Positions 6,198 to 37,980 of a stretch of 64,000 nt of DNA are shown piece by piece (within the stretch, counting starts at the first letter, position 1; each line of letters opens with the position of its first letter). The DNA comes from Kiloniella sp. EL199 (GTDB lineage: Bacteria; Pseudomonadota; Alphaproteobacteria; Kiloniellales; Kiloniellaceae), in NCBI RefSeq assembly GCF_900313065.1, contig NZ_OMPU01000015.1, positions 49 to 64,048 of the forward strand, in the 5' to 3' direction. A model generated the notes under the pieces. That model saw only the letters and a list, made by a program, of their open reading frames with translations, was not told where the DNA came from and did no database searches. The translations under genes and the position numbers were made by a program.

Positions 6198-8717
6198 TTA
6201 TTCGACGTTGCGCAAGATCTTGTTTTCAGGATCGTACGGTGATTCTTCAACAATAGTTGCTTTGAAGAGATTTCCGAGAATATAGACGTCCAGCTCTGTG
6301 CCAATTTCGGCCAGATCAGGACGAACCATTGCCAAGGCGATAGATTTCTGAGTACGGAAACCGTAACCACCGGATGTTACACGCCCAACCATTTCATCGT
6401 TGAGATAGATAGGTTCGGAACCGCGGGCATCACAGTCAGTTACACCATGAACTTCAAGGGTAACAAACTGATTGTCAAAACCGCGTTCTTTCCAATCTGC
6501 CAGTGCCTGTTTACCGATGAAATCATCCTCTTTGTCTAGACGAACAAAACGATCAAGACCTGTTTCAAGCGCAGAATATTCGATAGACATTTCTGTCGGG
6601 ATCAAGCGATAGGACTTTTCCAGTCGCATGGAATCCATTGCACGAATGCCAAATGGTTTCAGGCTGAATTCTGCACCAGCTTCCATAAGAAGATCAAAGA
6701 GGTAATTCTGCATTTCGATTGGGTGATGAAGCTCCCAACCATACTCACCAACAAAGTTAACACGTGCAGCAGTGACTGGCGCAATGCCAACAGAGATCTG
6801 TTGTGCGGTCAGCCATGGGAAAGCTTTGTTAGAGAAGTCAGTATCAGACAGCTTTTCCATCAAGAGGCGGGATTTTGGCCCGGCAATAATGAATACACCT
6901 TGTTGAGTTGTAATTTTCTCTAGCTCAACAGAACCATCAGTTGGCTTCAATTTTGTCAGGTAATCCCAGTCATGGCGTTCCTGAGCACCAGCAGATACAA
7001 GGTAATAGCTCTGCTTTCCTGTTTTCAGGATGGTGAATTCAGCACGAACACCGCCGTGCAGGGTCAACATGTGTGTCAAGGCCATACGACCGATCTTTTT
7101 TGGGATCTTATTGGCAACAAGACTGCTCAACCATGCTTCAGCGCCTCTACCTTTAACGATGAATTTGGAGAAAGCAGACATGTCGAGAAGGCCAACATTC
7201 TCCTGAACATTCTTACATTCGTTACCAACGTGCTCGAAGTAGTTAGAGCGTCGGAAAGACCATTTCTCTACAGGAAGTTTACCTTCTTCAGCAGGGGCGT
7301 GGTTTTCACGGGTGATTGTGTCATCTTGGTTCAAGTCTTCTTCGGTCAAGCCGTAGCCTTCTGGTGCGAACCAGTTTGGACGCTCCCAACCAAAGACGGT
7401 TCCCATAACGGCACCGTGTTCTTTCATGCGATCATAACAAGGTGAACGCTTTAGACCACGAGCTGCAGGACGAGATTCATCCGGATAGTGAACGGTGAAG
7501 ACATTCGCGTAGGCTTCTTCGTTTTTCTCTTTCAAGAAACCGCGGCCTGCATAAGGGCCGAAACGACGAGGGTCAACACCAGACATATCAATTGTTGGCT
7601 CACCATCAATAATCCATTCTGCCAACTGCCAACCAGCACCACCAGTTGCAGTAATACCAAATGAATGACCTTCGTTAAGCCAGAAGTTCTTTACCCCCCA
7701 TGCCGGACCAATAATTGGCGATCCATCAGGTGTGTAGGCAATCGCACCGTTGTAAACTTCTTTGATGCCGACTTCTGCAAAGGCAGGTACGCGCTCAAAA
7801 GCTGTCTCGATGTAAGGCATCAAGCGTTCAAGCTCACCGTTAAAGAGTTCGTATTTTGCGTCGGGGGCAGGACCGTCAACATAGCAGCAAGGCGCACCAA
7901 CTTCGTATGGGCCAAGCAACAGACCGCCAGCTTCTTCACGCATATACCATGAAGAATCTGATTCACGTAGAACGCCCATTTCTGGAAGCCCTTCTGCGTG
8001 ACGTGCTTTAATGTCAGGGTGTGGCTCTGTGACGATGAACTGGTGCTCAACAGGGATTACAGGAATATCAAGACCAACCATCTCACCGGTTTTGCGGGCA
8101 AAGTTACCGGTACAGGAGATGACGTGTTCGCAAGAGATATCCCCCTTGTCTGTCTGAACGATCCAGCTGTTATCGTCCTGCTGTTCCAAGCCAATAACAG
8201 TTGTATGCTGATGAATTTCAGCACCGTTGTTACGAGCACCTTTTGCAAGAGCCTGTGTCAGTTCTGCAGGCTGAACATATCCATCGTCAACGTGCTGGAT
8301 CGCCCCAAGAATACCGTCTGTGTTACAAAGAGGCCAGATTTCCTTGAGTTCTTCAACAGAAAGCCATTTAACATTGACGCCAAGTGTTTTGGCTACACCA
8401 ACATAGTATTTGTATTCGTCCATGCGGTCCTGTGTACGGGCCAGACGAATATTTGAAACCTGTTTAAGTCCTGAATTCAGGCCAGTTTCTTCTTCCAGAC
8501 GAGAGTAAAGATCTACAGAGTACTGGTGGATTTTACCAACAGAGTAACTCATGTTGAATAGAGGTAGCAAACCGGCAGCGTGCCAAGTGGAACCAGATGT
8601 CAGATCATGACGCTCTAGCAGCGCGACATCTGACCAACCTTTTTTTGCCAAGTGGTAAAGTGTACCAACACCAACAGCACCACCACCGATAACGACGGCT
8701 TTGTAGTGAGATTTCAT
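6198..8717 (-). CDS. Dimethylglycine dehydrogenase-like FAD/GcvT fusion protein
   Basis: This 839-residue protein combines an N-terminal FAD domain (VVIGGGAVGVGTLYHL at residues 8-23), a linker domain, and a C-terminal aminomethyltransferase (GcvT) domain from about residue 450. H46 in SGSTWHAAGL matches the histidine that carries covalent FAD in mammalian dimethylglycine and sarcosine dehydrogenases. The GcvT part contains the GVRAEFTI and FGIRAMDSMRLEKSYR blocks. The expected reaction is oxidative N-demethylation of dimethylglycine (or sarcosine), with the C1 unit captured as 5,10-methylene-THF. It is divergent from the MttB-family gene, whose expected product from glycine betaine is dimethylglycine, so the two would act in sequence. 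Whether dimethylglycine or sarcosine is preferred is not settled by the sequence. Confidence 0.88.
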   Translation of the reverse strand: MKSHYKAVVIGGGAVGVGTLYHLAKKGWSDVALLERHDLTSGSTWHAAGLLPLFNMSYSVGKIHQYSVDLYSRLEEETGLNSGLKQVSNIRLARTQDRMDEYKYYVGVAKTLGVNVKWLSVEELKEIWPLCNTDGILGAIQHVDDGYVQPAELTQALAKGARNNGAEIHQHTTVIGLEQQDDNSWIVQTDKGDISCEHVISCTGNFARKTGEMVGLDIPVIPVEHQFIVTEPHPDIKARHAEGLPEMGVLRESDSSWYMREEAGGLLLGPYEVGAPCCYVDGPAPDAKYELFNGELERLMPYIETAFERVPAFAEVGIKEVYNGAIAYTPDGSPIIGPAWGVKNFWLNEGHSFGITATGGAGWQLAEWIIDGEPTIDMSGVDPRRFGPYAGRGFLKEKNEEAYANVFTVHYPDESRPAARGLKRSPCYDRMKEHGAVMGTVFGWERPNWFAPEGYGLTEEDLNQDDTITRENHAPAEEGKLPVEKWSFRRSNYFEHVGNECKNVQENVGLLDMSAFSKFIVKGRGAEAWLSSLVANKIPKKIGRMALTHMLTLHGGVRAEFTILKTGKQSYYLVSAGAQERHDWDYLTKLKPTDGSVELEKITTQQGVFIIAGPKSRLLMEKLSDTDFSNKAFPWLTAQQISVGIAPVTAARVNFVGEYGWELHHPIEMQNYLFDLLMEAGAEFSLKPFGIRAMDSMRLEKSYRLIPTEMSIEYSALETGLDRFVRLDKEDDFIGKQALADWKERGFDNQFVTLEVHGVTDCDARGSEPIYLNDEMVGRVTSGGYGFRTQKSIALAMVRPDLAEIGTELDVYILGNLFKATIVEESPYDPENKILRNVE

Positions 8718-9233
8718 CGCCTGACTCCAAATTAATGCGACTAAACGTGCTTATGCACAGGGTCAAAGTTGTTTGTTATGTCTCGGCATTTCTTTGCGAT
8801 AGGGCAAGAGCTTTGTTAACTTTTGTAGCGTAAAAGCGACCGATTACATCTGAACATGATGATGAGGAACAGTTCGTTGAACGTCCTATCGGTTTGCGTC
8901 ACCACACTTGCAGTTAACGACATTAATGATCTTTTACGACGTTTTTAACTTTAACAGAACTTGACCCTTTTGGGACAAAGAAAGTCGCTTTATCTCAAGG
9001 TCAATCAAATCGACTCGTTCTTTCAGTATCTGAAATACAGTCACTCAGTTTAATTATTTTTGAAAAATATGATTTAATGGGGCGAAAACTTAATTCTGTT
9101 CTCAAGGTTTTTTTATTAGGGAAATAAGCTTGTTACCCCTCCTTGCCGCATTTGGTTTTTTGTCTGTCGCAATCTAGACAGAGCCAGATTAGTCAGAAGG
9201 GAATATTTCGAGATCTCTATGGGAGGGCAATTA
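8718..9233. promoter_or_regulatory. Long divergent control region between the flavoprotein and MttB-family genes
   Basis: About 515 bp without a gene separates the two divergent genes and must hold both promoters. It contains ATGCGAC at 8735-8741, a heptamer that recurs twice upstream of the corrinoid operon (38028-38034 and 38109-38115), and several related TGCG/ACGAC elements around 8890-8940. These are candidate half-sites for the GlxA-type regulator encoded at 11.1 kb. The region is AT-rich near 9050-9120. The assignment is inference. Confidence 0.4.
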
Positions 9234-10802
9234 ATGAGTGATACAGAAAAAAGATCAGGTCGCGCCGGTCGCGCCGGTCGAGGTCGTAGTGGCGGTGGTG
9301 CTGCTTCACGACGTGCCGCCAGATCAGGCGGTTCTTCAGAGCAACTGAAGTATATTACACGTAACATTCCTTATTTTGAGACGCTGAATGAAGAGGCGCT
9401 TGAAATTATCGAACACAATGCGGAAACAGTCCTGGAAGAAATCGGGATTGAATTCCGTGATGATCCCGAAGCCCTTCAAATTCTGAAAGATAATGGCTGT
9501 GATGTTCAGGGGGAACGTGTTCGTTTTCCTCGTGGTCTGGCGCGTCAATGGTGTGCACATGCGCCACGCGAGTTTACACAGCACGCCCGTAATGCAGAAA
9601 GATCTGTCATTATTGGCGGTAAGAATACTGTTTTTGCCCCTGTATATGGTCCTCCCTTTGTCCGCGATCTTGATGGTGGTCGTCGCTACGCAACGATTGA
9701 AGATTTCCGGAATTTCGTGAAACTGGTTTATTCAATGCCTGCGCTTCACCATTCTGGTGGTACAGTTTGTGAGCCTGTTGATATTCCAGTGAACAAACGT
9801 CACCTGGATATGCTGTATGCACACATGCGTTTTTCAGACAAGCCTTACATGGGCTCTGTGACAGCACCGGAACGTGCGGAAGATTCCATTGCTATGTCCA
9901 AACTGGTTTTTGGCGATGATTTCGTTGAAAACAATACAGTTATGATTAGCTTGATCAACGCGAACTCACCGATGACTTTTGATGATACAATGCTGGGTGC
10001 ATTGAAGGTTTATGCCAGCAACATGCAGGCTTGTATTATTACACCGTTCATTTTGGCCGGGGCGATGGCTCCTGTAACTGCTGTGGGTGTGATGGCGCAG
10101 TCCCTTGCCGAAGGTATGGCCGGGATTGCTTTTGCTCAGATGGTTCGCAAAGGTGCACCGGTTGTTATGGGGTCATTTGCAAGTTCGATCTCAATGCAAT
10201 CCGGAGCCCCGACATTTGGAACCCCGGAACCTGCACTGGTTCTTTATGGCATGGCACAGCTTGCACGCCGTCTTGGCGTTCCGTTCCGTTCCGGTGGATC
10301 GCTTTGTGGTTCTAAAGTTCCTGATGCGCAGGCTGCTTATGAGTCAGCGAATACAATTGTCCCAACATCTCTGGCTGGTGTAAACTTTACCCTTCACGCG
10401 GCTGGTTGGCTTGAGGGCGGTTTGATTTCATCCTATGAAAAACTCGTAATGGATGCGGATCAACTCGGTATGATGCAACGCCTGCTTGAAGGTTATGATT
10501 TAACCGAAAATGGTCAGGCGATGGATGCCCTTCGCGAAGTTGGTCCAGGTAATCACTTCCTCGGCTGTGCTCATACTCAGGCAAACTTTGAAACTGCTTT
10601 TTATCGCTCTAATATTGCTGATAACAATTCCTTCGAGCAGTGGGAATCAGAAGGTTCTCTTGATGCTTATCAGCGCGCAAATGCCGTTGTGAAAAAGACG
10701 TTGGAACAATATGTTGCGCCGGATCTTGATGCATCAATTGATGAAGCCCTGAATGAGTTTATCATCAAGAAAAAAGACTCTATGCCGGATGCCTTTACCT
10801 AA
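9234..10802 (+). CDS. Trimethylamine methyltransferase (MttB) family protein, non-pyrrolysine; probable glycine betaine methyltransferase
   Basis: This 522-residue protein is placed in the MttB superfamily (corrinoid-dependent amine methyltransferases). I chose the ATG at 9234 because a gggagg ribosome site lies 7 bp before it; an in-frame ATG at 9219 would precede that site. The frame has no internal TAG, so it lacks pyrrolysine. The experimentally studied non-pyrrolysine relatives (MtgB of Desulfitobacterium) demethylate glycine betaine. Residues about 7-34 are an Arg/Gly/Ala-rich basic tail absent from the catalytic core. The body carries SGGTVCEPVDIP, FILAGAMAPVT and FGTPEPALVLYG blocks typical of the family. 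The flavoprotein is divergent and a GlxA regulator follows. The methyl acceptor would be the corrinoid protein at 37.3 kb. Substrate is inferred; other betaines or carnitine are possible. Confidence 0.87.
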   Translation: MSDTEKRSGRAGRAGRGRSGGGAASRRAARSGGSSEQLKYITRNIPYFETLNEEALEIIEHNAETVLEEIGIEFRDDPEALQILKDNGCDVQGERVRFPRGLARQWCAHAPREFTQHARNAERSVIIGGKNTVFAPVYGPPFVRDLDGGRRYATIEDFRNFVKLVYSMPALHHSGGTVCEPVDIPVNKRHLDMLYAHMRFSDKPYMGSVTAPERAEDSIAMSKLVFGDDFVENNTVMISLINANSPMTFDDTMLGALKVYASNMQACIITPFILAGAMAPVTAVGVMAQSLAEGMAGIAFAQMVRKGAPVVMGSFASSISMQSGAPTFGTPEPALVLYGMAQLARRLGVPFRSGGSLCGSKVPDAQAAYESANTIVPTSLAGVNFTLHAAGWLEGGLISSYEKLVMDADQLGMMQRLLEGYDLTENGQAMDALREVGPGNHFLGCAHTQANFETAFYRSNIADNNSFEQWESEGSLDAYQRANAVVKKTLEQYVAPDLDASIDEALNEFIIKKKDSMPDAFT

Positions 10803-10833
10803 GCAATCTGGTTAGAGTGTATTCGTTATGGAG

Positions 10834-10855
10834 AGGCGGCTTTGGTCGCCTTTTC
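10834..10855 (+). terminator. Rho-independent terminator
   Basis: An aggcgg/tcgcct hairpin (10834-10839 with 10846-10851) is followed by tttt, 31 bp after the MttB-family stop codon. Confidence 0.75.
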
Positions 10856-11077
10856 TTTTGAGTACAAGCGAAAAGCCGTATTCGGTTCTTGTTTACTCCA
10901 AAACTTTCTGATAATTGGCATTTTAAAGAGTAAATAAACTCGGAATAGAATGAGTGTACATTTTAAGGGTCGTGCAAGAGAATAATGTTATTCTGCGGCC
11001 CGACCGTACTAATACGCACTTAACTGATAAATTGTTCCGCTACATTGCTAACACGCGCGTCAGGTGAAAGTTTAGAG

Positions 11078-12070
11078 ATGATTAGAAAAGCCCCGCAAGA
11101 ATTGCCACAGCGCATTGTTTTTTTCCTTGTCCCGAAATTTTCTCTTATTGCTTTTACTTCTGCGATAGAGCCGTTAAGGCTTGCTAATAGAGAAGCGGGG
11201 AAAAAGCTCTATAGTTGGAACTTGGTCAGCGTTGATGATCAATCCGTTATATCGTCCTGTGGTATCCCGATTACACCTGACATTAACCTTGATGAACTTG
11301 ATAGCTTTCATGCTGCTGTTATTTGCAGTGGGGAAGACGCGCACAGGATTGAGGACAGACGCATTCATTCTTGGTTACGACGTATCGAACGCAAAGGTGT
11401 TGATATCGGTGCGCTTTGTACGGGGGCACATATTCTGGCGAAAGCGGGTTTGCTGGATGATTACAGTTGCACGATCCACTGGGAAAACCTTGCTGGGTTT
11501 CTGGAAGATTTTCCAGAAATAGAAGTCACACCGGAATTGTTCGAGATTGATCGTAACCGATTTACCTGTGCAGGTGGTACAGCATCGCTGGACATGATGC
11601 TTAATGTTATTTCTGCCCAGCATGGACACGAGTTGGCCGGGGTTGTCGCAAACCAGTTTATGCATGATCGCATCCGGGATGAACATGATCAGCAACGTAT
11701 GTCGATGCCTGTTCGACTGGGGGTAAGACATCCAAAGTTGCTGGCTGTTATTAAATTGATGGAAGAAAATCTGGAAGAGCCTTTGACGCGTATTCAGCTT
11801 GCCAAAGATGCCGGACTGTCAACCCGGCAGCTCGAACGTTTATTTCGTAAATACCTAAGCCGTTCTCCTGCAAGGTATTATCTGGAGTTGAGGTTAAACA
11901 AGGCACGGCTTCTTTTGCTACAGACAAATATGTCTGTTATTGACGTCGCTTTGGCATGCGGGTTTGTTTCCGCGTCCCACTTCTCCAAATGTTACCGTGA
12001 TTTCTTTGGTCGGACACCAAGAAAAGAGCGTGGATTGCCGGGACTTCCCGGAGAAGAAGAGGACGTATAG
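11078..12070 (+). CDS. GlxA/GbdR-like AraC-family transcriptional regulator
   Basis: This protein of about 330 residues has an N-terminal DJ-1/PfpI-like (class I amidotransferase-fold) domain, including GALCTGAHILAKAGLL, and a C-terminal AraC helix-turn-helix pair (LAKDAGLSTRQLERLFRKY, VALACGFVSASHFSKCYRDFFG). This is the architecture of GbdR, CdhR and related regulators of betaine and carnitine catabolism. I chose the ATG at 11078 (aggtga 10 bp upstream) over an in-frame TTG at 11045. Its position after the MttB-family gene suggests it activates methyl-amine catabolism, perhaps through the divergent region at 8.7-9.2 kb and the corrinoid operon promoter. The effector would be a betaine or dimethylglycine, by analogy only. 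Confidence 0.9.
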   Translation: MIRKAPQELPQRIVFFLVPKFSLIAFTSAIEPLRLANREAGKKLYSWNLVSVDDQSVISSCGIPITPDINLDELDSFHAAVICSGEDAHRIEDRRIHSWLRRIERKGVDIGALCTGAHILAKAGLLDDYSCTIHWENLAGFLEDFPEIEVTPELFEIDRNRFTCAGGTASLDMMLNVISAQHGHELAGVVANQFMHDRIRDEHDQQRMSMPVRLGVRHPKLLAVIKLMEENLEEPLTRIQLAKDAGLSTRQLERLFRKYLSRSPARYYLELRLNKARLLLLQTNMSVIDVALACGFVSASHFSKCYRDFFGRTPRKERGLPGLPGEEEDV

Positions 12071-12097
12071 CTCTTCAAGGGCATAACTTCTTGAAAA

Positions 12098-12129
12098 AAT
12101 CCTGTGAATTATCTCACAGGATTTTTTTT
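12098..12129 (+). terminator. Rho-independent terminator
   Basis: A perfect 10-bp stem (12098-12107 with 12114-12123) and a 6-nt loop run into eight consecutive T residues, 27 bp after the GlxA-type regulator. Confidence 0.92.
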
Positions 12130-12168
12130 GTGCATAGCTTCGGCTATGAGGCATGAACAAAAGAAGGT

Positions 12169-12495
12169 TCAATTCTTATTATCAAAAGGTTCAAAACAGC
12201 TTTTAGGTAAAAGGGGTTCAAGAACATTGGCAATGTCGTGGGGGGCGTCAGTAAAATTGACCCCTACATTTGTACCGTGATCCCAGGCAACGGAAACATT
12301 GAGAGCAACTGATTGAGAAAAGCGGAGCGTTTCAATTATTTCGCCTGTTAAAGGGTCGTCAAATTCAAGTTTTGCACCAGTTAAAGAAATATCCATAACA
12401 GCACAGTCTTTTTTGCGTAAATTTCCATCAACCCGCCCAGCCAGAATCACTTCTGCTCTTGGAAATATCCTGCGGTCTTCAACTGATTCACTCAT
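12169..12495 (-). CDS. PilZ domain protein
   Basis: This 108-residue single-domain PilZ protein has the two cyclic-di-GMP binding motifs: RRIFPR (RxxxR) near residue 8 and DISLTGAKL (DxSxxG) in the middle. Such proteins act as c-di-GMP receptors in motility, adhesion or polysaccharide control. It stands alone, opposed to the GlxA regulator. A second small PilZ protein lies at 60.9 kb. The target process is unknown. Confidence 0.9.
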   Translation of the reverse strand: MSESVEDRRIFPRAEVILAGRVDGNLRKKDCAVMDISLTGAKLEFDDPLTGEIIETLRFSQSVALNVSVAWDHGTNVGVNFTDAPHDIANVLEPLLPKSCFEPFDNKN

Positions 12496-12683
12496 TGGCT
12501 GGATCTCCCTTATCGCAAATAGTTTGTAATCATGGGTAACTGATCGCGATTAAAAAAACTTTAACCCCATTGTATCTCAATAATAAAGAAGCTCTTTTGC
12601 AATTTATGGTTAATTTTTGTCAAGGAATATTTAACGTAAATTTTAGATTTAATTCTCTAAAATAATCCTGCTTGTAGGAGATT

Positions 12684-13139
12684 ATGATGGTTGCTATCGC
12701 ACAATTGGGGGAAAATTTCTCTGAAGTTGTCAGAGAAGAAAGTTTGGCAAAGGCCAATGATGGTCTGTTGAGTATACCGGCTGGTTCCGGGCAAGGAGTT
12801 CATGCTTTGCAGGAAATGCTCGTTAATTCTGTTTCTTTTGAGAATACAGTGCCGTCAAGTTCTGATGACTTAAACCAGTCTCTAAGATCTATTGAAACTG
12901 TTTCATCGAAAATGTCTGATCTTTCTCTGGATGAATCTAGTGATAGCCTTGCAGAAATTGAAATGGCACCTGTTGAAGATGATTCTTATCGTCCGACACC
13001 GTTTCTTAATCAGGGAATGTTATCTTTTTATATGCATGCTGATGAAGCAATGCAGGATGAGGAAATAATCCCGATGCCGGAATTGATAGAAGATGAAGAG
13101 TTTGATTTGATTCCGACTGTTAAACTTATGCTTCACTAG
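12684..13139 (+). CDS. Hypothetical acidic protein
   Basis: This 151-residue protein is not recognised. It is strongly acidic with Ser/Glu/Asp-rich stretches (SSDDLNQSLRSIE, SLDESSDSLAEIE, MPELIEDEEFDLIP), few aromatics and no membrane segment, so it is probably flexible. A taggag ribosome site lies 4 bp before the first ATG. Its stop codon overlaps that of the convergent MocR regulator by three bases. The long AT-rich leader upstream (12500-12680) suggests its own promoter. No function is proposed. Confidence 0.65.
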   Translation: MMVAIAQLGENFSEVVREESLAKANDGLLSIPAGSGQGVHALQEMLVNSVSFENTVPSSSDDLNQSLRSIETVSSKMSDLSLDESSDSLAEIEMAPVEDDSYRPTPFLNQGMLSFYMHADEAMQDEEIIPMPELIEDEEFDLIPTVKLMLH

Positions 13140-16476: not shown

Positions 16477-16495
16477 AACTGGTAGTTACCATTAA

Positions 16496-26614: not shown

Positions 26615-27313
26615 CTATACAGCGATTGCTGCTGTTTCTGTTTTCTTGCGATACAATATAATATCATCAATGGATACCACAGGCAGGTCATGCTTTTGTC
26701 CGAATGCGATGATTTCGGGCAGACGGGCCATTGTACCATCCGGGTTTGTTACTTCACATAGAACGCCAGCAGGTTTCCATCCGGCCATAGCAGATAGATC
26801 ACAGGTTGCTTCTGTGTGTCCCTGGCGGGTTAGAACGCCGCCAGCCATCGCCCGTAAAGGGAACACATGACCGGGACGAGCCAAATCGTCAGGCTTACAG
26901 TCATCAGCAATTGCTGTCTTAACGGTTGTTACACGGTCTGCTGCGGAAACTCCGGTGGTGACACCAACCTTTGCTTCAATGGTAACTGTAAAACCTGTTC
27001 CCATTGATGAGTTGTTGTCCTGCACCATTTGCGGCAAATCAAGACTGCGGAGTTTTTCATCCGTCATGCAAAGACAGACAATACCGCTGCATTCACGAAT
27101 GAGCATTGCCATCTGTTCATTGGTGAGAGTCTCGGCTGCGAAAATAAGATCTCCTTCATTTTCTCGATCTTCGTCATCTACGACGAGGACACCTTTGCCA
27201 GCACGCATGGAGGAAAGAGCTTTTTCGACTCTTTCATATGGCGTACCAAACTGCGCCAGTAGAGACTGGTGCGTATTATTGTGATCGTTTGCGATCTGAT
27301 TCATGGTTGTCAC
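26615..27313 (-). CDS. ribB: 3,4-dihydroxy-2-butanone-4-phosphate synthase
   Basis: This 232-residue single-domain enzyme has the metal and active-site loop [13 protein letters not shown] and the [13 protein letters not shown] block. It converts ribulose-5-phosphate to the four-carbon unit of riboflavin plus formate. It lacks the GTP cyclohydrolase II domain found in RibBA fusions, so RibA must be elsewhere. It is preceded by a clear FMN riboswitch, so expression should fall when FMN is abundant. An aggag ribosome site lies before the ATG. Confidence 0.95.
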
Positions 27314-27437
27314 TCCTAATAAGCGGCGTAACCAGAATCAGGGCGTGTTCAGAAAGGGCGAATGATTATATCTACCAAAGACATAGCTCATCCGCACACG
27401 CAGAATAAACAGGTGTATTGCCATGTTTATTCTTGCC

Positions 27438-27613
27438 TATCCTCTCCCATCCGGACTGTTACCGTCGGCTCTGGAGTTTCACCAGATCTGCTGACCCCTT
27501 GATTTCTAAATTCCAAAGAAATTCAAAAAACAAGGGCGCTCGCGGGCTTCTTTTTTCTACATACTGTATCTAAAAGTTACCGCCGGTCGGGAATTTCACC
27601 CTGCCCTGAGAAC
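27438..27613 (-). promoter_or_regulatory. FMN riboswitch (RFN element)
   Basis: Read on the minus strand the region holds all conserved RFN blocks in order: agggtgaaattcccgaccgg (27581-27600), agcccgcgag, the gatctggtgaaactccagag block with agccgacggt, and the closing ccggatgggagagg (27440-27453). It lies 125 bp before the ribB ATG. A 9-bp hairpin (27403-27411 with 27424-27432) between aptamer and gene could be part of the switching platform. No T-run follows that hairpin, which favours control of translation over termination. Confidence 0.96.
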
Positions 27614-27628
27614 AAGCGCCTAATTGCA

Positions 27629-28195: not shown

Positions 28196-28240
28196 AGGGG
28201 GATTTTATGGCGTTGCCAACATTTACTATGTCGCCACCAT

Positions 28241-29292: not shown

Positions 29293-29370
29293 TTAACGAA
29301 TCCATATATGTTTTGTATATGAATTGTATGTATTTTGTGTGGTAAAATTTCAAGTTATTTTTAAATCGAA

Positions 29371-30603: not shown

Positions 30604-30823
30604 AAATTTATCCGCTGGGTTGTTGGGGGCTGGAATGCAATACTAACACGCCTATAGAAAATTAAGGTGTAAGGTTTTAGTGGACAGCTGTGATGAATGA
30701 TGTGATCGATATCTTGATTGAAAAAAATAATCGGAAAGCGATTATGGTTCTTGTTTGACGGGGCTTTAGTTCTTACCTTAGGGAAGAAATCTGAATTCTT
30801 TAAATGTAAATGCTGAGGTCCTT

Positions 30824-31603
30824 ATGTTAGCTGTCGTTTCTCCTGCAAAAAAATTAGATGAGAGTGCTGCTAAAATTGATTTTCTGACATCTCAGCCTGT
30901 ATTCGAAAACCAAATCAAAGATCTCCTTTCGGTGACGAAAGACTTAACCCGTGCAGATCTTAGAAACCTGATGGGTATAAGTGAAAATCTGGCAGATCTA
31001 AATTATCAACGTTATCGGAGTTTTTCTTTTCCCTTTACCCGGGATAACGCCAAAGTTGCTGTTGATACCTTTAAGGGGGATACTTATGTCGGTCTTGATG
31101 CCGAAACTCTGAACGAAGATGAATTAAGGTATGCCCAAGATCATCTTCGTATTCTTTCTGGTCTTTATGGATTGCTACGTCCGCTTGATTTAATGCAGCC
31201 GTACCGTTTGGAGATGGGCACAAAGCTGGGTAATCCTCATGGTGAAGATCTCTATGACTTCTGGGGAGATCAAATCAGCAAAGAATTGAATACTCAGCTT
31301 GCCGAACACAGCGATAGAATATTGGTAAATGTTGCCTCTAATGAATATTTCAGAGCTGTTCAGACAGATAAATTGGAAGGTACGGTGATTACCCCTGTCT
31401 TTAAAGAAATTAAGGATGGTGTTACAAAGATCATCAGTTTTTCAGCAAAGCGTGCTCGAGGCATGATGGCACGATTTATTATGCAAGAACGGATTGATAA
31501 AGCTGAGGGGTTAAAAGATTTTACTGCAGGAGGGTATTCTTACCGATCTGATCTTTCGGTTGAGTCAGAGTTTGTGTTTACCCGTGAGCATGGCAAAGCC
31601 TAG
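30824..31603 (+). CDS. yaaA: Peroxide stress protein YaaA
   Basis: This 259-residue protein has the family's start (MLAVVSPAKKLDE) and conserved blocks (LSGLYGLLRPLDLMQPYRLEMG, LVNVASNEYF, FTAGGYSYR). In E. coli YaaA limits free iron and damage during peroxide stress and binds DNA. It is monocistronic and convergent with a small ORF. Its nearness to the OsmC fusion is consistent with an oxidative-stress theme. Confidence 0.95.
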   Translation: MLAVVSPAKKLDESAAKIDFLTSQPVFENQIKDLLSVTKDLTRADLRNLMGISENLADLNYQRYRSFSFPFTRDNAKVAVDTFKGDTYVGLDAETLNEDELRYAQDHLRILSGLYGLLRPLDLMQPYRLEMGTKLGNPHGEDLYDFWGDQISKELNTQLAEHSDRILVNVASNEYFRAVQTDKLEGTVITPVFKEIKDGVTKIISFSAKRARGMMARFIMQERIDKAEGLKDFTAGGYSYRSDLSVESEFVFTREHGKA

Positions 31604-31611
31604 AGGGCGTA

Positions 31612-31791
31612 TTAGTGCGCCGTGTGTAGTGCTTCAACTTGCTGTTTAATTACCTTCAAAGCACCATTAAAACCGTGTTTTTCAAGCTGGTAGGCAATAA
31701 CACCACCATAGGCTCTTTTGCTTATACCAAAAGTTTGATGGGTGATATTATCCTCAGCAAGACGGGTTTCCAGTTGTTCAGTTGTAGGCAT
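31612..31791 (-). CDS. Small hypothetical protein (59 residues)
   Basis: An open frame of 59 codons starts at an ATG (31791) preceded by aggaggcaaaaggaa, a strong ribosome site. It encodes a soluble, helix-prone peptide starting MPTTEQLETRLAEDN and ending in EALHTAH, with a central GISKRAYGGVIAYQLEKHGF segment. The strong ribosome site, the balanced composition and the 8-bp spacing to the convergent yaaA support a real gene. I do not recognise a family. Confidence 0.62.
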   Translation of the reverse strand: MPTTEQLETRLAEDNITHQTFGISKRAYGGVIAYQLEKHGFNGALKVIKQQVEALHTAH

Positions 31792-32080
31792 TTCCTTTTG
31801 CCTCCTCTATCTCGTCTCGAACAATGATAGTTCGAAGCGAAAATATTGATGTCTTGCCTGTGACATTTTTCTGTTCATACGTGGATTATACAGTACTAAA
31901 TAGTTAATGAAAAGTTAATTTCTTAACTTTTGTTAATGTTTATGTTTGAAATGTGTCTGAAAAATCAACCTGAAGGAACAATTTTAAGGTTAAATTGATT
32001 TTTGGTTATGATTTTTTGAAACATGATGAGGTGAACGGGCGAATGAAATTCGCTCCTTGGTCTATTTATATATTAGAAGG

Positions 32081-34096
32081 TTATCGCCTTCGCCTTCTTC
32101 TACGTCCACCTTCGGCAGAACCTTCTGCGGCAAGGGCCCCGACTTTGCGCTCAGGAAGGTTGACGACTTTTGCTAGGTTAACAAATTCGTCAATGGTATT
32201 GGGTATCCCCATGGCATTGACAAAGTGTTCCTGGAATTTTGGTTCGACTGCCGTTTCAATTTTTTCAACGCGACCAACTACATCTTCAATCTCTTTGCGG
32301 GCAGCCTTGTTGAGCAGGGCGATACGCGCCCCTGTTCCAGCAGCATTCCCGGCTGACTTTACACGCTCTAAATCACAGTCAGGTATCAAGCCAATTACCA
32401 TGGCGTACTTAACATCAATATGGCTGCCAAAAGCACCGGCAAGCTGAATGCGGTCGATGGTTTTCACACCCAGTTTCTCCATGAGCAATTTGACCCCGGC
32501 ATAGAGGGCAGCCTTAGCTAATTGAATTGCCCTGACATCTGTCTGGGTGACAGTAATCAGTGGTTCGTTCTCACTGACTACATAGTCGTAAGTCTTGCCA
32601 TTAAACTTTACGCGGGGAGACTTTTCGGACAGTGATCCATCAATAATACCATCTGTTTGAATAATACCCGCCAGAAACATCTCGCCAATAGCTTCGATAA
32701 TGCCAGAGCCACAGATGCCTGTCACACCGGTTGATTTAGTTTGTTCGGCAAAACCTTCTGCATCAGACCAGAGATCACAGCCTATCACTCTATACCTTGG
32801 CTCTAGCGTTTCCGGATCAATCCGAATACGTTCGATGGCACCCGGTGCAGCCCTTTGTCCACTTGTAATTTGTGCTCCTTCAAAAGCCGGTCCCGTCGGA
32901 GAGGAACAGGCAAGCAACCTGTCCTCATTGCCAAGAACAATCTCGGCATTGGTACCAACATCACAGATCAGCGTCACTTCGTCCTGAAGATGAGGGCCTT
33001 CGGAGAGAATAACACCGGCTGTATCTGCACCGACATGGCCTGCAATACAGGGAAGAACATAAACACGACCATCCGGGCTTATGTTAAGTCCAAGTTCGCT
33101 GGCATAGAGATCAATGGATGAATTCAATGTAAGGGCAAAAGGTGCCCCGCCTAGTTCTGTTGGATCGATGCCGAGCAAGAGGTGATGCATCACTGGGTTG
33201 CCCACAAAAGTCATGCTGAGAATATCTGAACGCTCAATTTTACCTTCGTCTGCGACAACGCCTATAATAGTGTCCAGAGCTTCACGAACTGCAACTGTCA
33301 TTTCTTTGTCGCCACCGGGGTTCATCATAACGTAGGAAACACGGCTCATAAGGTCTTCCCCGAAACGAATTTGAGGGTTCATAATACCGGATGAGGCTGT
33401 TACTTCACCTGTTTGGAGGTCACACAAGTGTGCAGCAACTGTAGTGGATCCCAAATCTACGGCAATGCCAAAAGCATTTTCCTTATAACCGGACCAAACC
33501 GCGATAATGGTTTTCTTGTTTTCAACCGCAACCGTTACCTGCCACTTTCCTTTTCTTAAAATAGGCTGCAACGTCTGTAGGGTTCGTAAGTCACAGTGCA
33601 ACCCCTTGAGACCCCATTGTGCTTCAAGCGCATCTTGCAAGCGTTCCAGGTCACCAGATGGATGATGCATGTCTGGCTCTGCAACTTCGATATAATGCAG
33701 ACGAATAGGCGGATCTATTTCGATTTCACGAACATCAGCACGCTTGCGTACGACCTGTTTATGGACTTGGCTTTCAGCAGGAACATCAATCAGAAGATCG
33801 CCTTCGATCATGGCCTGACAAGATAAACGACGTCCTTCTTTCATGCCTTTTTTACTGGCATATCGCTCTTCAACGCTGGAAAAGCCTGTCATGTTGGAGC
33901 AGGAGCTGACGATTTTGTGTTTCGCGAATTCACCTTCTCCGGCTTCGACTTGACAGCGTCCGCAGATACCTCGACCGCCACAAACTGAATCAATATCTAC
34001 ACCAAGGCTCCGTGCAGCTGTCAAAACAGGTGTCCCGATCGGAAAATCCCCGCGCCGACCAGAAGGGGTAAATACGATATGTGCATTCTTAGCCAC
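32081..34096 (-). CDS. ASKHA-domain [2Fe-2S] protein, RACo-like activator of corrinoid methyltransferase
   Basis: Using the GTG at 34096 (gaggagag 5 bp upstream; an earlier in-frame ATG at 34156 lacks this) gives 671 residues. The N-terminal plant-type ferredoxin domain has C39, C45, C48 and C93 as [2Fe-2S] ligands. The large C-terminal half is the DUF4445/ASKHA fold with AVDLGSTTVAAHLCDL, DVGTNAEIVLG and GICGSGIIEAIGE. Relatives such as RACo and RamA reduce Co(II) corrinoid back to Co(I) with ATP. The last seven codons encode consecutive arginines. It is the last gene of the corrinoid cluster, separated from the others by a terminator, so it may have its own promoter. Confidence 0.9.
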   Translation of the reverse strand: MAKNAHIVFTPSGRRGDFPIGTPVLTAARSLGVDIDSVCGGRGICGRCQVEAGEGEFAKHKIVSSCSNMTGFSSVEERYASKKGMKEGRRLSCQAMIEGDLLIDVPAESQVHKQVVRKRADVREIEIDPPIRLHYIEVAEPDMHHPSGDLERLQDALEAQWGLKGLHCDLRTLQTLQPILRKGKWQVTVAVENKKTIIAVWSGYKENAFGIAVDLGSTTVAAHLCDLQTGEVTASSGIMNPQIRFGEDLMSRVSYVMMNPGGDKEMTVAVREALDTIIGVVADEGKIERSDILSMTFVGNPVMHHLLLGIDPTELGGAPFALTLNSSIDLYASELGLNISPDGRVYVLPCIAGHVGADTAGVILSEGPHLQDEVTLICDVGTNAEIVLGNEDRLLACSSPTGPAFEGAQITSGQRAAPGAIERIRIDPETLEPRYRVIGCDLWSDAEGFAEQTKSTGVTGICGSGIIEAIGEMFLAGIIQTDGIIDGSLSEKSPRVKFNGKTYDYVVSENEPLITVTQTDVRAIQLAKAALYAGVKLLMEKLGVKTIDRIQLAGAFGSHIDVKYAMVIGLIPDCDLERVKSAGNAAGTGARIALLNKAARKEIEDVVGRVEKIETAVEPKFQEHFVNAMGIPNTIDEFVNLAKVVNLPERKVGALAAEGSAEGGRRRRRRR

Positions 34097-34241
34097 GGAT
34101 CTCTCCTCGTACCTTTGCCCCTTGTTAGTATTATTGTACGTGTTGGCATATGACACGTGGGGCTATACTTCTACTGTAGTGTTTTTGTTGGAAATCGGGA
34201 AAATTATATCCGATACCAAAGAAAATTGTCTTATTAAGATA

Positions 34242-34280
34242 AAAAGGCCCTCTTCGAAAATGGCATGAAGAGAGCCTTTT
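34242..34280 (-). terminator. Terminator inside the corrinoid cluster
   Basis: An imperfect long hairpin (34242-34255 with 34267-34280) ends in a T-run on the minus strand, 28 bp after the methyl-THF methyltransferase stop. It should reduce read-through into the activator gene. Confidence 0.75.
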
Positions 34281-34307
34281 ATAACTACCAATTTTTGTAT
34301 GGAGTTA

Positions 34308-35210
34308 TCAGGCCCGTCTGCGTCTGCTACGACGTTCGCCACGTGCGCCGGCCTGACCTTCCGGGGCTGGCTCACGGTACTTGCCGATCCACTTCAGGCA
34401 GTCCTGATCTTTTGCAAGCAAAACGTCAGAAGCACGGATCCCGGCCAGCTCTTCTTCGTGCAGCGGGTTCATGATCGCAGATGTCATACCTGCGGCGGCT
34501 GCCATAGCAAGGAAGTGTGCGTTCATGGCATGACGGTTTGGCAAGCCGAAAGAAATGTTGGATGCGCCACAGGTTGTGTTAACACCAAGTTCTGTTTTCA
34601 GACGGTGAAGCAGGGCAAAGACCTGTTTTCCGGCTGTACCCATGGCACCAATGGGCATAACCAGTGGATCAACGACAACACGGTCACGGGAAATGCCGTG
34701 ATCAGCAGCACGCTCAACAATCTTCTTGGCAACTTCGTAACGAACGTTCGGATCTTCAGAGATACCGGTTTCATCGTTCGAAATAGCAACAACAGCCGCG
34801 TCATACTGCTTTACCAGTGGAAGAACACGCTCAAGAGATTCATCTTCACCGGTCACAGAGTTAACAAGTGCACGACCTTTATAAACCTTCAGACCTGCTT
34901 CCAGTGCATCGATAATAGAAGAGTCAATGCACAGGGGAAGATCTGTCAGGCCTTGAACCAGCTGAATGGTTTCTGCAAGGATCTTCGGCTCATCCGCCAG
35001 AGGAATACCTGCGTTGACGTCGAGCATGTGTGCGCCAGCGGCAACCTGTGCCAGACAGTCGGATTCCACACGGCAGTAATCACCATTGGCCATTTCTTCC
35101 GCAAGTTTTTTACGGCCTGTCGGGTTGATCCGCTCACCAATAATACAGAAAGGATCATCAAAACCAATCGCGATCTCTTTGGTCGCGGAACTAACGATCG
35201 TACGGGTCAT
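34308..35210 (-). CDS. Methyltetrahydrofolate:corrinoid methyltransferase (MtgA/AcsE-like)
   Basis: This 300-residue pterin-binding TIM barrel of the DHPS/MeTr family has IGERINPTGRKKLAEE, HMLDVNAGIPLADEP, LCIDSSIIDALEAGL and NSVTGEDE, the blocks that bind the pterin and the methyl group. It would move the methyl group from the corrinoid protein to THF, or in reverse. The C-terminal tail is Arg-rich (ERRSRRRRA), beyond the normal end of the barrel. It lies 150 bp downstream of the MetF-like gene on the same strand. Confidence 0.9.
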   Translation of the reverse strand: MTRTIVSSATKEIAIGFDDPFCIIGERINPTGRKKLAEEMANGDYCRVESDCLAQVAAGAHMLDVNAGIPLADEPKILAETIQLVQGLTDLPLCIDSSIIDALEAGLKVYKGRALVNSVTGEDESLERVLPLVKQYDAAVVAISNDETGISEDPNVRYEVAKKIVERAADHGISRDRVVVDPLVMPIGAMGTAGKQVFALLHRLKTELGVNTTCGASNISFGLPNRHAMNAHFLAMAAAAGMTSAIMNPLHEEELAGIRASDVLLAKDQDCLKWIGKYREPAPEGQAGARGERRSRRRRA

Positions 35211-35360
35211 ATCGGTGTGTCTCCGGTAATGTAGCGTTTTATAGACTGGGCCATATGTTCTAAATTTGTATAGGACTTATATCAGAATTGCTTCTGCCGA
35301 ATAGTCCTTTCAGGTAGCTATTCGGCTATAGAAGCGACAAAATTGCGAATTTTGTCGATA

Positions 35361-36287
35361 TTATCCGATATCACGGTTTACTTTGAAGCCTTTGCCTTTG
35401 GGATCAACGATGAAATCGCCGTCCGTAACAGCATAGCTCCAGGCGGCGGATTTTTTCATCCCGCCCAATGGGTACATATGAACTTTTTTAATGCCGCAGT
35501 TTGGATCTTCAGCGTAATAGCGGGCCAGATCCATAACCAGTTTGTCCGGTGCGTTGACAGTCATCAGTTTTGCGATGTTCTTGGCCTGTCGGGTCAGAAC
35601 ACGCATGGAAGAGCCAATACCGCAGGCTTTTGCATGGTTCATAAGTGTTTTGATTGTTGCAAGTCCGGGCACACCAAGGTGGATTGGAAGCTTGTTGCCT
35701 TCGGCCTGAATCTTTTTGTCCCAAGCTATGATCGGTTCGGCCTCAAAGCAAAACTGCGTTGCGATGTACATATAGGCATCGGTTTGCTCTTTGAAAGTAT
35801 TTTTCCAGGCAATAGCTTCGCGCAGGCCAGCTTCGCTGATATCCGGGCTTCCTTCCGGATGACCTGCCACACCAATTGATTTGATACCGTATTTGTCAAA
35901 AAGGCCAGTTTCCATCAATTGCATGGAGCTTTCGAATTCGCCCAGTGGCTTGTCAACGGCACCACCCAGTGCAACAGCATGTTTAATGCCAACTTCGCCC
36001 TGCAGGGTTTTGAGGTATTCTTCAAAATCACTATGCGAGCGAATAGAGCGTGCAGCAAAGTGTGGAAGAGGGACAAAACCTTCATCTTTGAGACGTTTTG
36101 ATGTTGAAACTGTATCCGCAAAATCAGAGCCAGGCAGAAAGGTCACAGCTATTTCTGTGCCAGGGCGAAGATGCACACGATAATCGGGTGTCTTAGCCGC
36201 GGATCCCGGTGTTGTTTCAATTGTAAAACCAGTCATGAAGTCGATGATCTGTTGTTTGACGACTTCTGGATTGAACTCTGTACTCAT
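35361..36287 (-). CDS. Methylenetetrahydrofolate reductase-like protein
   Basis: This 308-residue MetF-fold protein has HFAARSIRSHSDFEEYL, IGVAGHPEGSPDI and ATQFCFEAEPIIAWDKKI, conserved folate and FAD contact regions. The sequence is divergent from the housekeeping MetF: it starts with a non-canonical N-terminus and has PLGGMKKSAAWSYAV near the end. Sandwiched in the corrinoid operon, it most likely oxidises methyl-THF to methylene-THF, the reverse of the biosynthetic direction. The direction is inference. The 45-bp gap to the PF13769-type gene upstream supports one transcript. Confidence 0.88.
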   Translation of the reverse strand: MSTEFNPEVVKQQIIDFMTGFTIETTPGSAAKTPDYRVHLRPGTEIAVTFLPGSDFADTVSTSKRLKDEGFVPLPHFAARSIRSHSDFEEYLKTLQGEVGIKHAVALGGAVDKPLGEFESSMQLMETGLFDKYGIKSIGVAGHPEGSPDISEAGLREAIAWKNTFKEQTDAYMYIATQFCFEAEPIIAWDKKIQAEGNKLPIHLGVPGLATIKTLMNHAKACGIGSSMRVLTRQAKNIAKLMTVNAPDKLVMDLARYYAEDPNCGIKKVHMYPLGGMKKSAAWSYAVTDGDFIVDPKGKGFKVNRDIG

Positions 36288-36332
36288 CTCATTAAACCTA
36301 AATGGGCGTTAGTCTTTAGCTTAACTGGTGAC

Positions 36333-36638
36333 TTAACTATCGTTGGAAAGGCCACCGTTTTGAACGAGGGCGTCTAATTTTTCGTCGGTGTATTCATTTT
36401 CGATCTGTGTTGCCATGGCTTGAGCTTCGGCATCCAGATCATCCCCGCAGTCTGTGGGAACACTTCTGCGCCAGTGTTCCAAATATGAATCACTGTCTTT
36501 TAGTTTGGCTTTCATTGCGGCGCGGTCGATTGCCTTTTCAAAGCGTTCGTGTAACTGAACCTTTGCGTTTTTACGACCTGCTTTAACGATAATTTGCGCA
36601 GGGATATCCCGCCAATAAACAAGTGTTAACTTGGCCAA
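36333..36638 (-). CDS. PF13769-type 'virulence factor' small protein
   Basis: This 101-residue protein begins AKLTLVYWRDIPAQIIVK, the signature of a small conserved family annotated only as 'virulence factor'. No membrane segment or catalytic motif is visible; the C-terminal half is acidic. It lies 10 bp after the DUF1638 gene, so the two are probably co-translated. Its fixed place with methyl-THF and corrinoid genes argues for a metabolic accessory role, not virulence. Confidence 0.8.
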   Translation of the reverse strand: MAKLTLVYWRDIPAQIIVKAGRKNAKVQLHERFEKAIDRAAMKAKLKDSDSYLEHWRRSVPTDCGDDLDAEAQAMATQIENEYTDEKLDALVQNGGLSNDS

Positions 36639-36648
36639 TGTAAATCTC

Positions 36649-37266
36649 CTAGTTGATGGCAGACATAAAGCTGCTCAACTCGCCGTATCCCGTAAATTTG
36701 TAATGATATTCCAAGCCAATTTTTTCGGCAGCTTGCTGTGCTAGCTCTTGAAGTTCCTGATCTTCAGTCTGGGCCAGATACACGAGCTTTGTGTAATTAC
36801 CGAAATACATTGGTAAAAGTTCAGGGTGTTTTGCAATGCCCATCCCTTCCATGATCAAGGTATCAAAATGTCTAACGAGATAATCTGTTAGGTAAAAGCA
36901 TGTGATGTCATTTTCATGCATCTGATCAAAGGCACCAAGGCCTGTGAAAAAGGCATAACAGTGAACACCATCTATGCGTTTGACGCCTTCTTCTTCCAGA
37001 ACTCTGTCCAGTTCGCCACCTGTGCCGCAATCGCCATAAACGACAACAATGTTCCCGTAAACATCTTTGTTTTCCTGGATTTTGTTGCGCACACCCTGTG
37101 GAATTTTATCTGGCGTATTGTGCCAGATTGCCGGAAGACACGTAATATCGAGATGATTCCAGCTGTTTAATTTATTAAGGGCGATGATTTCTCTGGCAAC
37201 CGCACCACATGCGATAAGAAGAGTTTTACTCTCCTTATCGTCGATGTGGGTGTTTGTATCGGACAT
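36649..37266 (-). CDS. DUF1638 family protein
   Basis: This 205-residue protein has three Cys-containing conserved blocks: LIACGAVARE (C20), VVYGDCGTGGEL (C80) and GVHCYAFF (H102-C103), which could bind a metal or a cofactor. No characterised homologue is known to me. DUF1638 genes often sit next to corrinoid methyltransferase genes in bacteria and archaea. Here it lies 21 bp after the corrinoid protein gene and 10 bp before the PF13769-type gene. Confidence 0.85.
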   Translation of the reverse strand: MSDTNTHIDDKESKTLLIACGAVAREIIALNKLNSWNHLDITCLPAIWHNTPDKIPQGVRNKIQENKDVYGNIVVVYGDCGTGGELDRVLEEEGVKRIDGVHCYAFFTGLGAFDQMHENDITCFYLTDYLVRHFDTLIMEGMGIAKHPELLPMYFGNYTKLVYLAQTEDQELQELAQQAAEKIGLEYHYKFTGYGELSSFMSAIN

Positions 37267-37287
37267 TGTCCTGAACTATTCAGCTTT

Positions 37288-37980
37288 TTAAGCTTGATTG
37301 TGGCGGCGTTGCATGGCTTCTTTTGCCATTTCAACGGCGACAGCAGCATCTCGGCAATAGTGATCTGCACCAATAGCCTCACCAAAAGCTTCGTTAAGCG
37401 GCGCGCCACCAACCATTACAACATAGTCGTCGCGAATGCCTTTTTCTTTCATGGTGTCGATGACGACTTTCATGTAAGGCATTGTTGTTGTCAAAAGTGC
37501 GGACATGCCCAGAATATCTGGCTTGTGCTCTTCGAGTGCTTCAAGATAGTTTTCAACCGGGTTGTTAATACCTAAATCGATAACTTCAAAGCCAGCACCT
37601 TCCATCATCATGGAAACAAGGTTTTTCCCGATGTCATGGATGTCGCCTTTAACTGTGCCGATAACCATTTTACCAAGTTTTGGTGCACCTGTTTCAGCCA
37701 GAAGAGGACGCAGGATGCCCATGCCGCCTTTCATAGCGCCAGCAGCAAGTAGAACTTCTGGTACGAAAAGGATACCATCACGGAAGTCAACACCAACGAT
37801 ACGCATGCCCTCAACCAAAGCTTTGGTCAGAACATCATATGGAGCCCAGCCGCGCTCAAGAAGGATTTCAACGCCTTCAAGGATTTCGTCTTTCAGACCA
37901 TCATAGAGGTCATCGTGCATTTGCAAGACAAGTTCGTCATCATCAAGCGTGCGCAGATCTAGATCATCTTCTTCAGACAT
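37288..37980 (-). CDS. Corrinoid-binding protein (MtbC/MtgC-like)
   Basis: This 230-residue protein has an N-terminal helical cap domain (about 15-95) and a C-terminal B12-binding Rossmann domain (about 103-225). The signature DxHxxG is GDIHDIGKN, with H115 as the lower cobalt ligand, then GMSALLTTT and MVGGAPLNEAFGEAIGAD. It accepts a methyl group from an MttB/MtgB-type enzyme and gives it to a methyl-THF methyltransferase. It is the first gene of the minus-strand cluster, so it marks the promoter. Confidence 0.93.
   Translation of the reverse strand: MSEEDDLDLRTLDDDELVLQMHDDLYDGLKDEILEGVEILLERGWAPYDVLTKALVEGMRIVGVDFRDGILFVPEVLLAAGAMKGGMGILRPLLAETGAPKLGKMVIGTVKGDIHDIGKNLVSMMMEGAGFEVIDLGINNPVENYLEALEEHKPDILGMSALLTTTMPYMKVVIDTMKEKGIRDDYVVMVGGAPLNEAFGEAIGADHYCRDAAVAVEMAKEAMQRRHNQA

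Follow-up and report, generated by a model that had tools for sequence, protein, structure and literature searches.

A predicted MtgBCD(E) methyl-transfer locus in Kiloniella sp. EL199 and a twin mtgD gene kept alike within genomes

The stretch of 64,000 nucleotides analyzed here (the window; positions 49 to 64,048 of contig NZ_OMPU01000015.1, assembly GCF_900313065.1) belongs to the alphaproteobacterium Kiloniella sp. EL199, whose genome (G000; 4.18 Mb, 19 contigs, 99.88% complete) was also searched, and carries the genes of a putative corrinoid-dependent methyl-transfer system of the MtgBCD(E) kind. Five of these genes were found in a row on the minus strand. The row starts with mtgC (37288–37980), encoding a corrinoid protein of 230 amino acids (aa) with PF02607 and PF02310 domains and the DxHxxG motif in the form DIHDIG, which scored 201 bits against NF047996, under the cut-off of 370. 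It continues with the gene of a DUF1638 protein (36649–37266; PF07796, 93 bits), a second factor linked to corrinoid reactivation, and with a gene for a MetF2-like member of the methylene-tetrahydrofolate (THF) reductase family (35361–36287; PF02219, 31.7 bits, cut-off 24), which adjoins mtgD (34308–35210), the gene of a methyl-THF:corrinoid methyltransferase of 300 aa (NF005719, 366 bits, cut-off 259). The row ends with the gene of a RamA/AcsV-like corrinoid reductive activator (32081–34156), which combines a 2Fe-2S and an ASKHA part (PF14574, PF17650, PF17651, PF00111, and Fer2) with the cysteine motif.

A second group of genes lies about 20 kb to the left of this row. The gene of a dimethylglycine dehydrogenase-like protein with FAD and GcvT domains (839 aa; 6198–8717, minus strand; PF01266, PF16350, PF01571, and PF08669) is divergent from the gene of the MtgB candidate, a 527-aa protein of the MttB family (9219–10802, plus strand; PF06253, 777 bits), and the gene of an AraC/DJ-1 regulator of 341 aa (11045–12070, plus strand; PF12833 and PF01965) comes next. 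The first of these proteins scored 605 bits against the solved dimethylglycine dehydrogenase and 354 bits against dimethylglycine oxidase, and the regulator was closest to GbdR (NF052371, 409 bits, cut-off 480). A formate-THF ligase gene, associated with one-carbon (C1) oxidation and outside the transfer chain proper, was found on the other side (51230–52900, plus strand; NF010030, 929 bits). A preliminary description of this DNA had named seven chain parts, and domain or family matches were obtained for all of them, at the places where it had set them. Its listing of every core part was right for the genes it contained and missed both the DUF1638 gene and a role in methionine synthesis, and the regulator that it had called GlxA-type is a real gene whose product is closest to GbdR.

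The reading frame of the MttB gene of the window contains neither an in-frame TAG nor any other stop before the terminal TAA. The in-frame UAG of pyrrolysine-containing MttB genes was thus missing, and the protein was therefore classified as a non-pyrrolysine member of the family. The Rfam family PYLIS_3, the pyrrolysine insertion element of mttB, did match inside this gene (10304–10401, plus strand; 44.7 bits, cut-off 38); since the gene has no UAG, this match was taken as family resemblance, and it advises caution in the use of that Rfam family as a pyrrolysine marker. Among solved chains, the nearest was 4YYC (828 bits), labelled "putative trimethylamine methyltransferase", and the protein scored 421 bits against 2QNE, 419 bits against 9YCE, labelled "Glycine betaine methyltransferase", and 137 bits against the trimethylamine methyltransferase 7XCL. 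The structure 2QNE is named as the glycine betaine methyltransferase MtgB in PMC9842639. These structure matches support glycine betaine (GBT) as the presumptive substrate of the window MttB, short of proof.

Five MttB paralogues were detected in the genome. The window MttB might instead be dedicated to a different quaternary amine (for example carnitine, choline or a proline betaine), with one of the other paralogues acting as the GBT enzyme. The five genes have differing neighbours and three of them, the window one included, adjoin FAD-GcvT demethylase-like genes, as would be expected if they served several substrates. Nevertheless, the window protein was the nearest of the five to the MtgB structures 2QNE and 9YCE (against 2QNE, the other four scored 345, 304, 220, and 192 bits), and the protein encoded next to it most resembles dimethylglycine dehydrogenase, so that specificity for another amine was judged rather unlikely. 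Up to seven MttB genes per genome are recorded in PMC12478193, and matches were obtained in 23 of 25 genomes including this one, with 0 to 20 per genome, the two highest counts coming from the most fragmented assemblies.

Three of the other paralogues were inspected in their surroundings. On contig C6 (217000–236000; MttB at 8679–10328 of this locus, L099), the neighbours encode a protein of the enolase superfamily, an old-yellow-enzyme-like flavoprotein of 679 aa and a LysR regulator that resembles the one of choline sulphate use, the labels there being under cut-off. This paralogue possibly serves a betaine other than GBT. Its reading as a proline-betaine enzyme replacing a Rieske oxygenase was not supported: the enolase-like protein matched 13 solved chains, none of which carries the label of a proline-betaine epimerase, and both this protein and the old-yellow-enzyme-like one have family labels under their cut-offs. 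On contig C14 (278000–297000; MttB at 8732–10303 of L100), the gene lies by those of an 806-aa FAD-GcvT protein and of sarcosine-oxidase-like, phosphonate-type binding and fatty-acid-desaturase-like proteins. On contig C16 (461000–480000; MttB at 8847–10409 of L102), a FAD-GcvT demethylase-like gene of 810 aa comes directly after it, giving another pair of MttB and demethylase.

The search of the whole genome yielded no match for MetE, and the activation domain of MetH (PF02965) was also absent. No GbcA-type ring-hydroxylating oxygenase (PF00848) of the GBT monooxygenase GbcAB was matched in the genome, with 4 of 14 control genomes being positive. Two of the three PF02310 matches were methylmalonyl-CoA-mutase-type proteins, and MtgC is therefore the single methyl-type corrinoid protein beside the five MttB proteins. 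The RACo-type activator (PF14574) had a single match, the RamA-like protein of the window; pterin-binding proteins had three, two of them being copies of mtgD; and a canonical metF is present besides the gene of the MetF2-like protein. Three proteins with the PF02574 domain were found, and the one on contig C13 (366 aa; 496 bits, cut-off 338) is of the betaine-homocysteine methyltransferase (BHMT)-like or MtgE type. The genome therefore holds a detached homocysteine domain, MtgE, together with neither a MetE match nor a MetH activation domain, which makes it most likely that MtgC and MtgD of the transfer chain are also the core of methionine synthesis in this organism. None of the nine genomes of the genus, among them G005 at 77% completeness, had the PF02965 domain, and 13 of the 14 others in the family had it. 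Another row on contig C3 (L098, 9277–11927) contains an ArsR-methyltransferase regulator gene, metF and the gene of a short homocysteine-methyltransferase-domain protein, a candidate for a further methionine-synthesis protein. The regulator gene (10989–11927) adjoins metF and joins an ArsR helix-turn-helix to a methyltransferase domain, a make-up that we take to be that of SahR.

In the congener G007, mtgE was found 20.6 kb from the MttB gene; the interval holds, in order, the other six tested genes of C13 and five from the left end of the window. In that genome, mtgE, the MttB group and the mtgC operon were all on one contig within approximately 51 kb. This gene order places mtgE of EL199, which is on C13, probably just beyond the left boundary of the window. 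A simple overlap of contigs C13 and C4 was discarded, as the 213-bp match at 97.2% ends 131 bp short of the end of C13; with this overlap being imperfect, their join rests on the gene order of G007.

All these features, namely the PF06253 enzyme, the free corrinoid protein, the free pterin protein with metF2, and the RamA-like protein with DUF1638, are those of the MtgBCD(E) system. The MtgBCD system of Ruegeria pomeroyi, with MetF2, a RamA-like activator and DUF1638, demethylates GBT and also serves as a split methionine synthase, one MtgC/MtgD pair running catabolism and methionine synthesis in opposite directions (Mausz 2025, PMC12478193). According to the same paper, RamA, DUF1638, and MetF2 go up on N-osmolytes, this is a major route by which N-osmolytes are demethylated in the sea, and some members of the system retain MetH, its loss being usual and not required. 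Strain DSS-3 of R. pomeroyi and EL199 have in common the PF06253 MtgB, MtgC, MtgD, metF2 beside mtgD, RamA, DUF1638, MtgE, the lack of MetH, and more than one MttB paralogue. The parts are scattered in DSS-3 and share one neighbourhood in EL199, a co-location that PMC12478193 calls frequent in other bacteria; moreover, DSS-3 has a single bidirectional MtgD, a non-defining feature, whereas two near-identical mtgD genes are present in EL199, the second of them alone and with a leader of its own. Phaeobacter inhibens likewise makes its methionine synthase as three proteins, with a RamA-like DUF4445 protein and DUF1638 (Price et al. 2018, PMC5764234), and the separate-protein synthase, the RamA-like protein and DUF1638 are shared by EL199. 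By their locus numbers, its pterin protein and activator are away from the corrinoid gene, whereas in EL199 they are in the same row, with the metF2-like gene added and the dimethylglycine dehydrogenase/MttB/GbdR group close by. The MtgABC system of Desulfitobacterium hafniense also uses a non-pyrrolysine MttB-type enzyme and a corrinoid protein and passes the methyl group to THF (PMC12478193 and PMC9842639; PDB 2QNE and 9YCE), but its host is an anaerobe and the MtgC of roseobacters is phylogenetically distinct from its MtgC (PMC12478193).

Relatives of MtgC were widespread. One scan of genome contigs matched at least 592 stretches, at least 589 of them encoding relatives, with the highest identity among the matches listed (89%) in a Pelagibius and a Rhodospirillales metagenome-assembled genome. 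In the best 80 of these stretches (80–89% identity, flanks of up to 10 kb), counting matches that covered more than half of the query, at identities down to 24% for MttB, DUF1638 was found in 76, MtgD in 44, RACE in 42, MttB in 31, MetF2 in 24, the GbdR-like regulator in 13, and the dimethylglycine dehydrogenase-like protein in 5. The order mtgC-DUF1638-metF2-mtgD-ramA is kept in related genomes and is therefore not due to chance.

On these grounds, it was considered highly probable that the locus belongs to the MtgBCD(E) system and that the methyl group of a quaternary amine, most likely GBT, passes through MtgC and MtgD to THF, the same parts serving as methionine synthase. All catalytic steps, as well as the substrate, the flow direction and how the system is regulated, are predictions from sequence. 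MtgB would move the methyl group onto the cob(I)alamin of MtgC, MtgD would hand it to THF, and MetF2 would oxidize methyl-THF to methylene-THF, from which C1 units would enter the rest of the THF pathway, formate-THF ligase included. The RamA-like protein and DUF1638 would re-reduce inactive cobalamin, the dimethylglycine dehydrogenase-like protein would take off the methyl group that follows, and sensing would fall to the GbdR-like protein. Working in reverse with the detached homocysteine domain MtgE, MtgC and MtgD would form the methionine synthase of the cell.

Several observations weigh against parts of this scheme. The GbdR assignment scores under its model cut-off, the assignment of MetF2 rests on a weak score and on gene position, the GBT enzyme could be any of the five MttB paralogues, all of them candidates, and the two further PF02574 proteins (contigs C19 and C3) might make methionine. 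In PMC12478193, two MttB proteins go up on N-osmolytes, and no mtgB mutant was noticed in the text available from that paper. The Bmt protein of P. inhibens, viewed as the homocysteine component of the split synthase, also accepts methyl groups directly from betaine in vitro (PMC12366255), and some GBT demethylation may therefore bypass MtgBCD.

This last point leads to a different explanation, in which the operon is mainly a split methionine synthase, MttB acts on another amine or is little used, and the BHMT-like MtgE/Bmt demethylates GBT directly. The lack of MetE and of the MetH activation domain, the score of mtgE as a BHMT and the formation of methionine from betaine by P. inhibens Bmt without cobalamin (PMC12366255) would all agree with it. 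Nevertheless, the MttB gene stands back to back with a dimethylglycine dehydrogenase-like gene and beside a GbdR-like gene, MetF2 in the operon suggests oxidation of methyl-THF, and the mtgC and mtgD mutants of R. pomeroyi, which are methionine auxotrophs, cannot use GBT for growth even with methionine (PMC12478193), so that this explanation was regarded as quite improbable. The preferred MtgBCD(E) reading agrees with the preliminary description in that a corrinoid chain for a quaternary amine, with GBT as the leading substrate, remained the best account and fits the Ruegeria genetics (PMC12478193), and departs from it in that the chain is probably not catabolic only; to see only catabolism, from the window alone, is to overlook a biosynthetic function that is probably essential. 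The pathway was called split there, which is correct only for the distance of about 20 kb between the two groups in the window; in G007, both groups and mtgE are on one contig. The surprise expressed at such a chain in an aerobic-type alphaproteobacterium did not hold, and novelty of the chain in aerobes was ruled out by PMC12478193, PMC5764234 and the number of MtgC relatives in genome contigs. The mechanism is already published and hence not new, and the part worth following is the twin mtgD.

The second, lone copy of mtgD is located on contig C17 (120219–121121) and encodes a 99% identical protein. In a blastn alignment, the two copies were 96.9% identical over 939 bp without gaps, the near-identical block (window 34302–35240, minus strand; L104 9189–10127) comprising the coding sequence, the 30 bp before it and the 6 bp after it, where the alignment stops. 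Of the 25 differing positions within the gene, 5 are ambiguous bases in the lone copy and 20 are real differences, 19 of them at third codon positions; the proteins differ by one amino acid, with two codons unreadable. The lone gene has a 5′-nucleotidase gene on one side and, on the other, a divergent small globin-like gene, with a chemotaxis receptor gene beyond it. The small globin-like gene (131 aa; L104 8524–8919 and L121 8236–8637, both on the minus strand) matched PF01152 with 21.7 bits at a cut-off of 21. Enzymes that depend on B12 are sensitive to nitrogen oxides, and the pairing of this gene with the lone mtgD may be meaningful.

MtgD was searched for in 58 genomes, nine of which (G000–G008) belong to the genus. 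Two whole copies with different flanks were found in G000 and G007. In both G001 and G004, contig ends carry two starts, one behind metF2 and one behind the receptor gene, and two ends; the second end of G001, the lone copy by elimination, had no nucleotidase match within 10 kb. G006 has the operon copy complete and, of the lone copy, the first 39 residues, in addition to a 27-residue end at 74%, and G002 holds two 29-residue ends at contig ends, one of them beside ramA. No mtgD match was obtained in G003, where a contig begins just before ramA (match from base 194), in the 77% complete G005 or in G008. Thus, both places were seen in five of the nine genomes, the other four being undecided and not negative. 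Outside the genus, the surroundings of mtgD were examined in eight genomes (L111–L118), seven of them representing two further genera of the family and the eighth the order. The gene was next to metF2 in all eight and next to ramA in seven, the exception (L117) being a contig end; of the two places, that in the operon is therefore the older.

Doubling of mtgD as a consequence of MetH loss was also considered and was not supported as a rule. Nine genomes outside the genus lacked PF02965 (G010, G024, G026, G027, G029, G031, G034, G049, and G052), and G024, G026, G027, G031, and G034 each have one whole mtgD; G049 gave a single partial match, no match was obtained in G029 and G052, and G010 has two partial matches on different contigs, from one gene or two. 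In G055, PF02965 matched only under the cut-off and one mtgD was present. With at least five MetH-less genomes of the order having a single mtgD, doubling and MetH loss coincide here without one requiring the other, and among the 58 genomes no other genus showed the doubling, with G010 undecided. The twin mtgD was not found described in our literature search, and the words "duplicat" and "copies" are absent from the main text of PMC12478193; a search on gene conversion, methyltetrahydrofolate and corrinoid gave the case of the methanogen mtrA (PMC4632066). There, too, two copies of a methyl-transfer gene are held alike by gene conversion, but these belong to the archaeal Mtr complex and lie within one operon, whereas the mtgD copies occupy two separate places and encode a bacterial THF enzyme.

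The two copies resembled each other by genome rather than by place. Divergence was 0–4.6% within genomes as against 4.3–28.6% between genomes, the extremes coming from stretches of 117–153 bases, and in G000 and G007, with both copies whole, no site was split by place and 72 were split by genome. A tree, from which the lone fragment of G006 was excluded, paired the operon and lone copies within G000 (97/99) and within G007 (100/100) and, more weakly, within G004 (87/86, from 31% of the columns), the two G001 copies lying outside these pairs and being unresolved. A clade of lone copies was rejected (approximately unbiased test, p 2e-76), the group being set by genomic place and the test made after the tree was seen. 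Flanking genes diverge normally between genomes, with identities of 77.6–89.7% for metF2 (five genomes) and 84.6–88.3% for the nucleotidase gene (three genomes). The differences within a genome were patchy: the longest difference-free run covered 48 of 152 variable sites in G000, matched by 106 of 20,000 random placements, and 104 of 152 in G007, matched by none of 20,000. Because the copies are alike by genome and their differences are patchy, the homogenization of mtgD within genomes bears the signature of gene conversion, as judged from these alignments.

A trivial origin of the near-identical pair, whether by an artefact of assembly or by a recent chance duplication of no significance, was also weighed. 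The ambiguous bases of the lone copy in G000, contig breaks inside mtgD in several congeners and the blurring of repeats by short reads would point that way. Against it stand the whole copies with different flanks in G000 and G007, the starts in G001 and G004, each behind its own upstream gene, the whole operon copy and partial lone copy of G006 and the low divergence within genomes compared with that between them; the same two places in five genomes would be hard to obtain by artefact or by independent duplication. Such an origin was hence held to be very improbable.

Furthermore, the lone mtgD is preceded by a conserved leader (L104 9071–9221, plus strand; L121 8816–8966; L123 9930–10081; L130 9165–9316; L124 860–1006, minus strand). 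The last full 100-column block before the lone gene was identical at 88 positions in four species, compared with 23–76 in the other full blocks, which are in part occupied by the small globin-like gene, and the stretch was still recognizable in the distant G001. Four leaders folded with z-scores of −1.8 to −4.4. No known riboswitch was matched in L104 at the Rfam gathering score, and the 45 matches of a permissive search (L104 8300–10400) were all under that score, the best having 32.6 bits. A covariance model of the leader (R1; 5 sequences, 164 columns) found, in 33 sources, its own five sequences and six others at 12.0–19.5 bits, the best three of which (19.5, 18.9, and 15.5) lie upstream of operon mtgD genes, where the last 30 bases are common to both places. 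It gave no match in 15 further loci, including the surroundings of mtgD, mtgE or MetH in other genera, and in the 80 MtgC loci it gave two weak matches at a single place in L081, one per strand (21.6 and 18.6 bits; E 0.06 and 0.3). A widespread leader was therefore discarded, since R1 finds it before lone copies only, apart from weak scores. Covariation was thin, with 2 of 37 pairs changing on both sides, both in G001, where many pairs break, and the covariation term was unfavourable (+2.48); an operator is therefore as likely as an RNA switch. The leader of G001 contains AGACGTCT, which is given as an Escherichia coli MetJ box in PMC4239095, and no conclusion was drawn from this.

Two further features of the window were recorded. 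A flavin mononucleotide (FMN) riboswitch (27435–27617, minus strand) lies upstream of a DHBP synthase gene (26615–27313, minus strand) and is ordinary. Near the corrinoid operon, a gene for a molybdopterin S/N-oxide reductase of the BisC/TorA kind, under the cut-off, was found (42439–45126, plus strand), which may link to methylated amine oxides.

As a tentative explanation of the twin mtgD, the gene may have been doubled for separate control, the operon copy passing betaine methyl groups to THF and the lone copy, behind its own conserved and foldable leader, passing those of methyl-THF into methionine synthesis. Expression and not catalysis would then be split, the proteins being kept the same by gene conversion, and the leader would perhaps be an undescribed RNA switch or operator related to methionine or S-adenosylmethionine. 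The twin mtgD may thus separate the catabolic from the biosynthetic use of one reversible enzyme, and two MtgD genes in different settings, encoding near-identical proteins, make the control of the direction of flow open to testing.

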